Shown: positions 49,487 through 52,702 of the stretch, one piece after another | Numbering within the stretch: the stretch's first letter is position 1 | How the letters are laid out: every line of letters starts with the position of its first letter | Assembly: GCF_003116815.1 (NCBI RefSeq) | Contig: NZ_QDKQ01000011.1 | Location: 62,001 to 126,000 of the forward strand | Origin: Caulobacter endophyticus | GTDB lineage: Bacteria > Pseudomonadota > Alphaproteobacteria > Caulobacterales > Caulobacteraceae | Direction of reading: 5' to 3' | DNA: 64,000 bases | The notes under the pieces: model-generated | Seen by the model: the letters and a program-made list of their open reading frames with translations, nothing else | The model's database searches: none | What the model was told of the DNA's origin: nothing | Position numbers and translations under genes: made by a program

Positions 49487-50602
49487 ATGAGAGATTTCAA
49501 GGGCATGAAGCGCCAGCGTGGCCGCAACAACCGCGGGGGCGGTGGTGGCAAGCCGCAGCAGCACAACGCCAACCGGGCCTTCGATTCGAACGGTCCGGAT
49601 GGCGTGAAGGTCCGCGGCGCGGCCCAGAGCGTCTATGAAAAGTACCAGCAGCTGGCCCGCGACGCCTCGTCGTCCGGCGACCGGGTGCTGGCCGAGAACT
49701 ACTTGCAGCACGCAGAGCACTACTTCCGCGTCCTGCGCGCCATCCAGCCGAATCGTCCGGTCAGCGACATCATCGGCAAGGACGCCTACTCGGCCTACGA
49801 GATCGACTTCGAAGCCGAGCCGGAAGAGGCCCCCGAGGCCCCGCCGGCCGCCGAGACGCCCGCCGAGGGCGCTGAAGGCGGCGAGGGCGGCGAAGGCCAG
49901 GGCGAGCAACGCCGTGACCGCAACCGCGACCGCTTCGAGAACCGCGACCGTGACCGCAACCGCGATCGCGACCGTGACGGTCAGCAGGGCGAAGGCCGCC
50001 GCGACCGCTGGCGCGACCGCGACGATCGCGACCGCAACCGTGATGACCGCCCTCGTGACGATCGTCCCCGCGATGATCGTCCCCGTGACGACCGGCCGCG
50101 CGAAGAGCGCTTCCGCGACCGTGACGACCGTCCCCGTGATGATCGCCCGCGCGACGACCGTCCCCGGGAAGAGCGTCAGCCGCGCGAGGACCGCCCGGCG
50201 GCCGAAGGCGGCGAGTTCCAGGGCGAGGCCCGCGAAGGCCGCCGCTCGCGCCGCGACCGGGATCGTGACCGCAACCGCGATCGCGACCGCAGCGAGCGCG
50301 ATCCGCTGGCCGTGATCGAGCCGGAAGCCGGTCCGCTGGGCGGCGAAGCGCAGGCGACCGAAAGCTCGCCGGTGCTGCGCGGCCAGGACGGCGCCGTCAG
50401 CCACGCTCCGGCGTTCCTGGGCCGCAAGTCCGAACCCAAGCCGGCCCCCGAGCCGAAGACCGAAACCGCTCCGGCGGCCGAGACCCCCGCCGCCCCGGCC
50501 CCCGAGGCCGCCGGCGAAGAGGTCAAGAAGCCCCGTCGTCGCCGCGCCCCGCGCAGCTTCGAAGGCGGCGACGCCCCGGCTTCAGAGCCGGAAGACGCCT
50601 GA
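49487..50602 (+). CDS. DUF4167 protein with Arg/Asp repeat tract
   Basis: 371 residues. The N-terminal ~110 residues are the DUF4167 domain (RQRGRNNRGGGGGKPQQHNANRAFDSNGPDG, then YEKYQQLARDASSSGDRVLAENYLQHAEHYFRVL). From ~140 to 260 comes a long repeat tract, R-D-(D/N)-R and RDDRP units, then an Ala/Pro/Glu-rich tail ending KKPRRRRAPRSFEGG. The protein is likely RNA-binding. In Alphaproteobacteria this family commonly follows prmC. 49235-49486 before it holds no other gene, though two CCGATCGG boxes are found at 49455-49480. Confidence 0.88.
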   Translation: MRDFKGMKRQRGRNNRGGGGGKPQQHNANRAFDSNGPDGVKVRGAAQSVYEKYQQLARDASSSGDRVLAENYLQHAEHYFRVLRAIQPNRPVSDIIGKDAYSAYEIDFEAEPEEAPEAPPAAETPAEGAEGGEGGEGQGEQRRDRNRDRFENRDRDRNRDRDRDGQQGEGRRDRWRDRDDRDRNRDDRPRDDRPRDDRPRDDRPREERFRDRDDRPRDDRPRDDRPREERQPREDRPAAEGGEFQGEAREGRRSRRDRDRDRNRDRDRSERDPLAVIEPEAGPLGGEAQATESSPVLRGQDGAVSHAPAFLGRKSEPKPAPEPKTETAPAAETPAAPAPEAAGEEVKKPRRRRAPRSFEGGDAPASEPEDA

Positions 50603-50608
50603 GGTCAT

Positions 50609-50631
50609 CCGCCGCGAGGACTTGGCGGCGG
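50609..50631 (+). terminator. Weak hairpin after the DUF4167 gene
   Basis: CCGCCGC / GCGGCGG stem with a 9-base loop, 7 bases past the stop. No T-run. Confidence 0.45.
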
Positions 50632-50647
50632 ATCAACCCATAGGCTA

Positions 50648-50672
50648 GGCTCTCCTGGACCACAGGAGAGCC
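50648..50672 (+). promoter_or_regulatory. Perfect inverted repeat enclosing the ribosome binding site of the heme-PAS kinase gene
   Basis: GGCTCTCCTG-gacca-CAGGAGAGCC: perfect 10-bp arms, 5-base loop, 4 bases before the ATG at 50677. The only good Shine-Dalgarno sequence (AGGAG, 50665-50669) is within the 3' arm. It could block ribosome loading as an RNA hairpin, or act as a DNA operator. Confidence 0.7.
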
Positions 50673-50676
50673 AGCC

Positions 50677-51708
50677 ATGGGCGGGCGTGGAACACAGTCC
50701 GGCGGAGCGGGCGACGAAGCCCGCTATCGCGCCATCGTCGACACGGCGGTGGACGCCATCGTCGTCATCGACGAGTACGGCCGCATCGAAGCCTTCAATC
50801 CGGCCGCCGAGCGACTGTTCGGCTATGCCGCGGCCGACATGATCGGCGGCAACGTCAACACCCTGATGCCCGAGCCGCATCACGGCGCCCACGACGGCTA
50901 TCTCGACACTTACCGCCGCACCGGCGAGCGCCGGATCATCGGCATCGGCCGCGAGGTGTTCGGGCGGCGCCAGGACGGCACGACCTTTCCCCTCGAACTG
51001 TCCATCGCCGAGTGGCGCTCGGGCGACCGGCGCTTCTTCACCGGCGTCATGCGCGACGTCACCGAGCGCAAGCGGGCCGAGGAACTGCAGCGGCTGCTGG
51101 TCAACGAGCTCAATCACCGGGTCAAGAACACCCTGGCCACCGTGCAGTCGGTGGCCGGCCAGACCCTGCGCAACGCCGCCGACCTGGGCGACGCCCGCGA
51201 GTCGCTGACCACGCGCCTGCTGGCCTTGGCCCGGACCCACGACATTCTCACCCGTGAGGCGTGGGACGGCGCGGACCTGCACGACATCGTGGCGGGCCTG
51301 GTGGACTCCTATGGAGACGCCTCTCGCTTTGAACTGGCCGGGCCGCCGGTAAGGCTGTCGCCCAAGACCGCGCTGTCGCTGTCTCTGGCCCTGCACGAGC
51401 TGACCACCAACGCGGCCAAGTACGGCGCCCTGTCGCAATCGACCGGCCAGGTGCGGATCAGCTGGAGCCGGGAAGGCGAGGGCGACGACGAGCGGCTGCG
51501 ACTGCGCTGGCAGGAGGCCGGCGGCCCTCCGGTGTCGCCGCCGGAACGCAAGGGCTTCGGCAGCCGCCTGATCACGCGCGGGCTGGCGCTGGAGCTCGAC
51601 GGCGAGGCGGCGCTCGACTATCCGCCCGAGGGCGTGGTCTGCACCATCGTCGCCCGTATCCGCCGCCGCCCGGCGGCCCAGCCGGCGCCTGCCCGGGGAG
51701 CCGCCTGA
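50677..51708 (+). CDS. Probable heme-PAS (FixL-like) HWE histidine kinase
   Basis: 343 residues, cytosolic. Residues ~15-132 form one PAS domain very like the oxygen-sensing heme PAS of FixL: ERLFGY, NVNTLMPEP, then HDGYLDTYRRTGE, RIIGIGREVFGRRQDGTTFP and FTGVMRDVTE. By alignment to remembered B. japonicum FixL, H72 matches the heme ligand H200 and R92 the distal R220. The kinase core has H147 in LLVNELNHRVKNTLAT, the W motif AWDGADLHD and ALHELTTNAAKYGAL, so it is HWE rather than HisKA. Stop and ATG of the response regulator overlap by one base. Heme binding is inferred. Confidence 0.85.
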   Translation: MGGRGTQSGGAGDEARYRAIVDTAVDAIVVIDEYGRIEAFNPAAERLFGYAAADMIGGNVNTLMPEPHHGAHDGYLDTYRRTGERRIIGIGREVFGRRQDGTTFPLELSIAEWRSGDRRFFTGVMRDVTERKRAEELQRLLVNELNHRVKNTLATVQSVAGQTLRNAADLGDARESLTTRLLALARTHDILTREAWDGADLHDIVAGLVDSYGDASRFELAGPPVRLSPKTALSLSLALHELTTNAAKYGALSQSTGQVRISWSREGEGDDERLRLRWQEAGGPPVSPPERKGFGSRLITRGLALELDGEAALDYPPEGVVCTIVARIRRRPAAQPAPARGAA

Positions 51709-52046
51709 TGCGGGTGCTGATCGTCGAGGACGAGATCATGGTCGCCATGCTGGTCGAGGACCTGCTGACCGACCTGGGCTGCGACGTCACCGGCCCGGCG
51801 GTCTCGGCCGAGACGGCGGTGGAGGCCGCGCGGCGCGAGGTCGTCGACTTCGCCCTGCTGGACGTGAACCTGGACGGCGGCACCTCGTTCGCCGCCGCCG
51901 ACGTGCTGCGCGAGCGCGGCGTGCCCTTCGCCTTCGTCACCGGCTACGGCGACCAGGGCGTGCGGCCGGACCTGCGCGACGTGCCGATCCTGGGCAAGCC
52001 GGTCGATCCCCGGCAGCTGGCGCGGACCATCGCCGCCGCCCGCTGA
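51708..52046 (+). CDS. Single-domain response regulator
   Basis: 112 residues, receiver domain only. The phospho-acceptor is D52 (LLDVNLDGG); E7/D8 form the acidic pair, T78 and K97 complete the switch. There is no output domain, so it would act by protein contact or as a phosphate sink. The gene is translationally coupled to the kinase (TGATG) and is its likely partner. Confidence 0.93.
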   Translation: MRVLIVEDEIMVAMLVEDLLTDLGCDVTGPAVSAETAVEAARREVVDFALLDVNLDGGTSFAAADVLRERGVPFAFVTGYGDQGVRPDLRDVPILGKPVDPRQLARTIAAAR

Positions 52047-52108
52047 AGGCGAACCCTCCGGCGCCTGGCGAGTTATCTCGGCTCCTTCGACGTTCCCTGG
52101 AGCCGCCC

Positions 52109-52702
52109 ATGCGCGCCGCCGCCGCTATCGCCCTGTCCCTCGTGGTCGCCACGCCCGTCCTGGCCGCCTCCGGCGACTGGCGGCGCGACGCGACCCGCGA
52201 GGACATCAACCGGATCGAGCGGCTGAATTCGGCCTGGGAAGGCGCGCTGTCCGAGGCGCGGCGCAGCGGCCACGCCCGCGAGCTGCGCGCCCTGGGCGTC
52301 TTGGTGGAGCCGCGCGCCGCCCTGCCTCGACCGCAGCCGACGCCCGGCAATTACCAGTGCCGCACGATCAAGCTGGGCAGCCAGGACGGCCGTGGCCTGC
52401 CCTACGTCGCCTACGGCTGGTTTCGCTGCCGGGTGCAGCTGACGCCTGGCGGCGACCTCTTGCTGGAGAAGACCAGCGGCTCGCAACGTCAGGCCGGCAA
52501 CCTCTACCCCGACAGCGACCGGCGCCTGGTGTTCCTGGGTGCGGTGGCGTGGGGCGACCGCGAGGGCCGGGCGACCTACCGCCGCGATCCGCAGCGCGAC
52601 CAGGCCGGAGTGTTCGAGCGCATCGGCCCCAACCGCTACCGCCTGGTCATGCCCTGGCCGCAGCAGGAGTCCAAGCTCGACATCCTCGAGTTGAAGCGTT
52701 GA
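52109..52702 (+). CDS. DUF4893 exported protein
   Basis: 197 residues with a signal peptide (MRAAAAIALSLVVATPVLAASG). The mature part matches the DUF4893 pattern: DWRRDATREDINRIERLNSAW, then YQCRTIKLGS, YGWFRCRVQL, and LVFLGAVAWGDREGRATY; ends SKLDILELKR. Periplasmic; function unknown. Starts 62 bases after the response regulator, and is followed by a palindromic element, so it could be the last gene of that unit. Confidence 0.85.
   Translation: MRAAAAIALSLVVATPVLAASGDWRRDATREDINRIERLNSAWEGALSEARRSGHARELRALGVLVEPRAALPRPQPTPGNYQCRTIKLGSQDGRGLPYVAYGWFRCRVQLTPGGDLLLEKTSGSQRQAGNLYPDSDRRLVFLGAVAWGDREGRATYRRDPQRDQAGVFERIGPNRYRLVMPWPQQESKLDILELKR

Follow-up and report, generated by a model that had tools for sequence, protein, structure and literature searches.

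The window, a 64,000-nucleotide stretch of the Caulobacter endophyticus genome (contig NZ_QDKQ01000011.1, positions 62,001 to 126,000), contains a pair of overlapping genes on its forward strand. The first gene (50677..51708, stop codon included), delimited from its open reading frame, translation, and Pfam matches, encodes a 343-residue sensor histidine kinase with a PAS domain (PF00989, E 1.4e-18) and an HWE domain (HWE_HK, PF07536, E 2.8e-27, 95.7 bits against a cut-off of 22.8). The second gene (51708..52046, forward strand), the start of which overlaps the stop of the kinase by one base, encodes a 112-residue protein that matches only the receiver family PF00072 (E 9.3e-11) and is without an output domain. 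The preliminary description of this DNA, made from the letters and their open reading frames, had reported the same 343-residue frame and adjoining receiver, and the Pfam matches bear out its reading of the kinase core as HWE, not HisKA, and of the partner as a receiver without output. The PAS motifs that it had listed, NVNTLMPEP, HDGYLDTYRRTGE, and IIGIGREVFGRRQDGTTFP, are all present where it had placed them, and its numbering of His72, Arg86, and Arg92 is correct on recount.

A 10-bp inverted repeat (50648..50672, forward strand) is located just 5' of the kinase start. As RNA, the repeat would fold back into a hairpin over the likely ribosome-binding site. The predicted fold of the segment 50645–50705 has an energy of −32.6 kcal/mol (z −3.85), which was equalled by one of 200 shuffled sequences. 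Most of the base pairs are kept in seven of the nine orthologs that carry threonine at position 78 of the kinase; one of these seven has substitutions in both arms, and several have wobble changes. Matches to sigma-70-type promoters or terminators were not found in the interval 50400–52300, and no respiratory genes adjoin the kinase–receiver pair.

The PAS domain of the kinase (residues 14–128; 50716..51060, forward strand) is assigned to the FixL heme type by its sequence and predicted fold. A phmmer search with the PAS domain alone against the PDB, a comparison that the preliminary description had proposed, identified only FixL at E ≤ 1e-20, with seven distinct sequences, the best of which is the S. 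meliloti FixL domain (6.7e-36). DosP is far behind FixL among the solved structures; its best E-value, obtained with the whole protein as the query, is 3e-14. The model of the kinase, built from a 38-row alignment, has a mean pLDDT of 86.5 and agrees with crystals of the B. japonicum FixL (BjFixL) heme domain to 1.2–1.8 Å and with the S. meliloti structure 1d06 to 2.4 Å. When superimposed using VIA-align, residues 25–141 of the model match residues 153–269 of BjFixL (1lt0) over 117 of 117 residues, with an rmsd of 1.4 Å and a Z of 19.8; the superposition onto S. meliloti 1d06 is less tight, at 3.7 Å. Both ends of the alignment with 1lt0 are offset by 128 and, therefore, His72 falls on His200, Arg92 on Arg220, and the other pocket residues on their equivalents.

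Sequence and structural alignments give the same mapping of the putative heme pocket; the roles given here for the FixL residues are those described in PMC10765370. His72 (codon 50890..50892, forward strand) corresponds to the heme ligand His200 of BjFixL, and Arg92 (50950..50952, forward strand) to the distal Arg220. Arg86 is at the position of His214, Thr78 (50908..50910, forward strand) at that of Arg206, and Ile87, Leu108, and Ile110 form the equivalent of the distal triad Ile215, Leu236, and Ile238. The two main equivalences, His72 with His200 and Arg92 with Arg220, had been anticipated in the preliminary description, which had named a placement of His72 away from the heme pocket as the outcome that would speak against its reading; the structural alignment places His72 in the pocket. 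The preliminary description had also noted an arginine where BjFixL has His214. The position is right, but the residue is not a departure from FixL, as S. meliloti FixL has arginine there too. We therefore rejected the argument that this arginine counts against heme. It is the common state of the position: the 65 FixL-type pockets that do not belong to the Caulobacter HWE orthologs, a set that includes BjFixL, have 38 Arg, 21 Lys, 2 His, 2 Gln, and 2 Thr, and a heme-type histidine is present in all 65. DosP of E. coli has the heme histidine and distal arginine in the same columns as the window PAS, and the window PAS is the best match to the heme-PAS part of DosP among the PAS domains of this genome (E 1.2e-16). 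DosP differs in being about 26% identical to the window PAS, and in its output, which is a c-di-GMP phosphodiesterase and not an HWE kinase.

The histidine alone is a weak marker, common in ordinary PAS domains. Pockets were surveyed by a six-frame phmmer scan of the collected loci, which provided 188 domains at E 1e-18; after gappy sequences were dropped and identical ones merged, 140 distinct PAS domains remained. The distal arginine is present in 99 of them, always together with the histidine, while 33 have the histidine without the arginine and 8 have neither, in a sample drawn by likeness to a query that carries both. Treating the histidine as the evidence was rejected on account of these 33 domains, and the whole pocket and the fold were used instead.

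Orthologs of the kinase were searched for in 75 Caulobacter genomes using a 150-residue PAS-plus-HWE query. They are present in 24 of the genomes, that of the window included, with matches extending from residues 1–3 to 150 at E ≤ 2.9e-79; in G472, only a fragment was found. His72, Tyr75, Arg86, Ile87, Ile88, Arg92, Val94, Leu106, Leu108, and Ile110 are invariant in all 24 orthologs. Because 77 of the 115 PAS positions are invariant, a single such residue is modest evidence and it is the pattern that counts. The sensor PAS is the best kept part of the kinase: the other 23 orthologs average 86% identity to the window protein in the PAS, against 83% for the HWE domain and 72% for the catalytic domain. 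Named loci with PAS domains 94% and 98% identical to that of the window belong to C. endophyticus and to a strain that bears the label C. vibrioides. A relative from another family of the order (L041 in G056), with 50% identity, retains both His72 and Arg92 and has a receiver downstream.

This conservation bears on the alternative that the PAS domain has FixL-type ancestry but has lost heme, and now serves for dimerisation or binds another ligand. Such a loss would be in keeping with the occurrence of the histidine in the ordinary PAS domains counted above, with the report that about 40% of a FixL/DosP PAS cluster is without the histidine (PMC10468136), and with the two HWE PAS kinases that are described in PMC10359499 without a known trigger. 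However, all 24 orthologs retain the histidine, the arginine, and the distal triad, and their PAS is more conserved than the kinase; we consider the loss of heme improbable. Heme binding by the PAS domain is highly probable, and the heme reading of the preliminary description appears well supported.

The PAS trees, calculated from 126 columns and 65–89 rows, leave many forks unresolved. In the first tree, L116 and L160 occupied unlikely places, and they were omitted from the second together with other long or near-identical rows. The second tree includes DosP, which forms a very long branch, and in it an ordinary PAS domain (L110) fell among the Caulobacter rows. Apart from L110, this tree separates the FixL-type rows, DosP, and the window PAS from five ordinary PAS rows with support of 100/100. 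BjFixL and S. meliloti FixL belong to a nested clade of 21 rows, most of which are HisKA by motif, and the window PAS branches outside this clade. Descent, therefore, helps but does not bracket heme binding.

As read from the alignments, the actual departure from FixL is Thr78, which the preliminary description had overlooked, and not Arg86. The arginine of FixL at this position, Arg206, contacts a heme propionate and is part of the O2 switch. Position 78 is occupied by arginine in 15 of the 24 Caulobacter orthologs and by threonine in nine, among them the window protein; the 65 FixL-type pockets outside this group have 30 Arg, 24 Asn, 5 His, and a single Thr. According to PMC10765370, the R206A variant of BjFixL loses much of the O2 inhibition, and R200 variants of SmFixL retain heme and undergo autoxidation in air; SmFixL itself has absorption bands at 418 nm (oxy), 434 nm (deoxy), and 424 nm (CO). 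Heme binding is therefore still to be expected with Thr78, and O2 is less sure as the signal. Compared with FixL, the Thr-bearing orthologs may be inhibited less strongly by O2, or may have a heme that is oxidised more readily. Thr78 could have replaced an oxy-stabilising arginine in a PAS domain that binds heme and reports on the redox state of the heme, NO, or CO, and not on O2. The frequency of threonine in the orthologs relative to the other pockets and the autoxidation of the SmFixL variants point in this direction. Nevertheless, the arginine kept in most of the orthologs makes the family as a whole look like an O2 sensor, and arginine is not universal at this position, which is asparagine in 24 of the 65 other pockets and histidine in DosP. 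We consider a signal other than O2 unlikely, and somewhat favour O2 over redox, NO, or CO as the main one. The presence of threonine or arginine at the switching position in close orthologs constitutes a natural experiment on signalling from a FixL-type PAS to a kinase.

The kinase core comprises the HWE dimerisation and phosphotransfer domain (residues 144–223; 51106..51345, forward strand) and the ATP-binding domain (residues about 224–330; 51346..51666, forward strand). His147 in the motif NELNHRVKN is the predicted phospho-acceptor, and the HRxxN, N-box, W-x-E, and GFG motifs of HWE cores are present. Residues 137–331 of the model can be superimposed onto the kinase domain of Brucella LOV-HK (5epv_B) with a Z of 25.1 and an rmsd of 2.0. 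The LOV-HK or LovK type (Brucella 6ph4, 5epv), which provides the closest solved kinase core, likewise combines an HWE core with a short, soluble sensor of the PAS family. However, the LOV motif NCRFLQ of this type (PMC10359499) is not found in the window kinase, the sensor of which is FixL-type. Another HWE kinase match in the window genome (G000:C24:77655-78583; L019, L025) runs over two adjoining frames, covering query residues 16–256 and then 258–324, as if a frameshift or sequencing error had broken the gene.

We classify the kinase as not being a FixL. Its NCBIfam FixL score is 156 bits against a cut-off of 850, and its neighbour is a lone receiver in place of FixJ. The FixL proteins of B. 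japonicum and S. meliloti have the same PAS fold, and the equivalents of their His200, Arg220, Ile215, Leu236, and Ile238 are all found in the window PAS; FixL has, however, a HisKA core with HELNQP, Arg206, and a FixJ partner, whereas the window pair has an HWE core, threonine, and an output-less receiver. The window genome also encodes two kinases with FixL-type PAS domains and HisKA cores (L013 and L015), and a gene that is FixJ-like when read by eye follows L015. This suggests that a standard FixL–FixJ-type oxygen pathway is probably kept in the same cell, beside the PAS–HWE pair.

The receiver has a complete set of active-site residues, consisting of the acid pair Glu7 and Asp8, the phospho-acceptor Asp52, Thr78, and Lys97. 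The nearest solved chains are 2lpm (E 1.6e-26) and SdrG (5ieb, E 5.3e-15). We take 2lpm to be Sma0114; its database entry names only a response regulator. Sma0114 is said, in the title of a paper, to be HWE-kinase-associated. SdrG, MrrA, and Sma0114 are FAT GUY receivers and, like the window receiver, single receivers beside or served by HWE kinases. The receiver motif PFAFVTGYG differs by one letter, Val for Ala, from the FAT GUY motif PFxFATG[G/Y] given in PMC5898713 and PMC5964349. A receiver-like frame, found by motif, is positioned directly downstream of all 24 Caulobacter orthologs, and the neighbouring receiver is very probably the partner of the kinase. Further FAT GUY-like receivers in the window genome are L254, L255, L257, and L259, two of which adjoin HWE kinases: L254 is beside L004 (G000:C11:33402-34402) and is 50% identical to the window receiver, and L255 is beside L007 (G000:C34:157675-158606) and is 49% identical.

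FixT of C. crescentus, a single-domain receiver that inhibits the autophosphorylation of FixL (PMC7078487), is a precedent for a receiver next to a kinase with a heme PAS, and the window receiver could similarly be a feedback inhibitor of its own kinase and not a relay. Against this, the four-cysteine motif described for Caulobacter FixT (PMC7078487) is absent from the window receiver, which has one cysteine; its likeness is to SdrG, and the matching solved chains listed do not include FixT. Feedback inhibition of this kind is very unlikely.

According to PMC5964349 and PMC5898713, many HWE/HisKA2 kinases donate phosphate to MrrA and SdrG, which relay it towards PhyR. From the likeness of the receiver to SdrG, we propose that its phosphate would enter the MrrA/SdrG–PhyR network. 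PhyR is encoded in the window genome (373 bits against a cut-off of 240), and a HisKA2-type kinase, membrane-bound by eye (L027), is located about 2.5 kb from PhyR; the connection of the pair to PhyR is one that we infer from family likeness. That the output is this stress or attachment network, rather than FixJ, is a realistic prospect, a little short of probable.

The pair could also withdraw phosphate from the network. LovK–LovR drain phosphate (PMC5964349) and have a part in attachment (PMC6530869). If the window pair were a sink of this type, the main activity of the kinase would be to transfer phosphate from a hub, for example MrrA, onto its own receiver and to dephosphorylate it, and the sensor would tune a drain and not a source. 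PMC5964349 describes LovR as a sink and LovK and PhyK, both of the HisKA2 type, as phosphotransferases, and the window receiver has no output domain. On the other hand, the ATP-binding motifs of the window kinase look intact, and several HWE/HisKA2 kinases of C. crescentus autophosphorylate and feed MrrA (PMC5964349). We regard a drain as doubtful.

A FixL-type PAS joined directly to an HWE/HisKA2 core also occurs outside the Caulobacter orthologs. The searches for this pairing, with G253:C75 left out, scored only some candidates per genome, so that the counts are lower bounds. Among 385 sampled genomes of the class, the pairing is found at least in G131; among 249 genomes of the order, at least in G056, with at least seven further Caulobacter orthologs in the same sample; and among 398 genomes of the phylum, at least in G853. 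It is also present in Pseudoroseomonas vastitatis (L080). The kinases of G056 and G131 are followed by a receiver, which in G131 lacks the FAT GUY motif. Within 300 bases after the kinases of G853 (L278) and P. vastitatis, no receiver was seen; a receiver does not accompany the pairing in every lineage, which counts against the mechanism proposed below. A whole-kinase search of the class sample, with 15 of 385 genomes matching at E ≤ 1e-60, identified no other FixL-type pocket among the loci picked up by the PAS scans. Candidates that were rejected as further pairings are G153:C62, which has glutamate at position 72, G104 and G200, which are HisKA by motif, and G782, which is HisKA. A Caulobacter protein with an HWE core, L042, has an ordinary PAS domain with the histidine and without the arginine.

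On the two PAS trees, the HWE label, with L042 among the labelled rows, changes nine and six times, and at least four of the changes are forced by well-supported branches. The tree of HWE cores, from which L020, L064, and L069 were left out and in which L198 has a very long branch, unites the Caulobacter orthologs in one supported group (97/99), with the other lineages apart. Repeated domain shuffling would be the simplest reading of how the PAS–HWE pairing arose.

From the observed domains and residues, the predicted fold, the conservation, the gene pairing, and the fact that the genome encodes PhyR, a mechanism can be proposed that connects heme, ligand, direction of control, control by O2, and the target of the receiver. 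The PAS domain would bind heme b via His72, and Arg92, together with Ile87, Leu108, and Ile110, would contact the iron-bound O2 or other diatomic ligand. The state of the heme would set the autophosphorylation of His147 through the helix joining the PAS to the kinase. From His147, the phosphoryl group would pass to Asp52 in the adjacent FAT GUY-like receiver. The target of this receiver, whether it works through phosphotransfer or serves as a sink, would be the MrrA/SdrG–PhyR stress and attachment network and not a DNA-binding FixJ. A soluble heme-based gas or redox HWE sensor kinase, with its own single-domain receiver and output on the MrrA/SdrG–PhyR network, is a likely description of the pair. 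More tentatively, a FixL-type heme sensor of oxygen or redox state may act, via an HWE kinase and a FAT GUY-type receiver, on the general stress and attachment network of the alphaproteobacteria, parallel to FixL–FixJ within one cell, with the pairing shuffled several times and the O2 switch retuned from Arg206 to Thr in one Caulobacter clade.

The sensor, the kinase family, and the receiver family are each known, and their combination is new as far as our literature search shows: in the openly licensed PMC literature, judged by title and the start of the abstract, no report on the fusion of a heme PAS with an HWE kinase was found. PMC5964349, the main text of which has no occurrence of "heme", "oxygen", or "FixL", reports that it is not known which cues are sensed by the kinases, often of the HWE/HisKA2 type, that act upstream of the C. 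crescentus hub MrrA. The window kinase belongs to the class that feeds MrrA, comes from the same genus, and has a sensor whose ligand is predictable. If the proposed reading is true, the general stress or attachment network would be linked to oxygen or the redox state of heme, in addition to the known FixL–FixJ route.

FixL-type PAS domains were also observed in other contexts. In L083 and L082 (3001–3420), one is carried on a GGDEF protein from Gallionellaceae and the other on a HisKA kinase, and in both an additional residue directly precedes the distal arginine (VCGREV and VGPREV), which would shift the O2 contact. S. meliloti 1021 encodes on pSymA (L158, 622084–622458) a second FixL-type PAS protein besides FixL, which retains the histidine and arginine and has a different kinase core. 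Other FixL-type PAS domains, about 67–68% identical to the window PAS, are found on Azospirillum plasmids. Two tandem FixL-type PAS domains are found in several other genomes of the class, and L204 of G168 contains, from position 657 onwards, three in tandem, each with the heme-type histidine and arginine.
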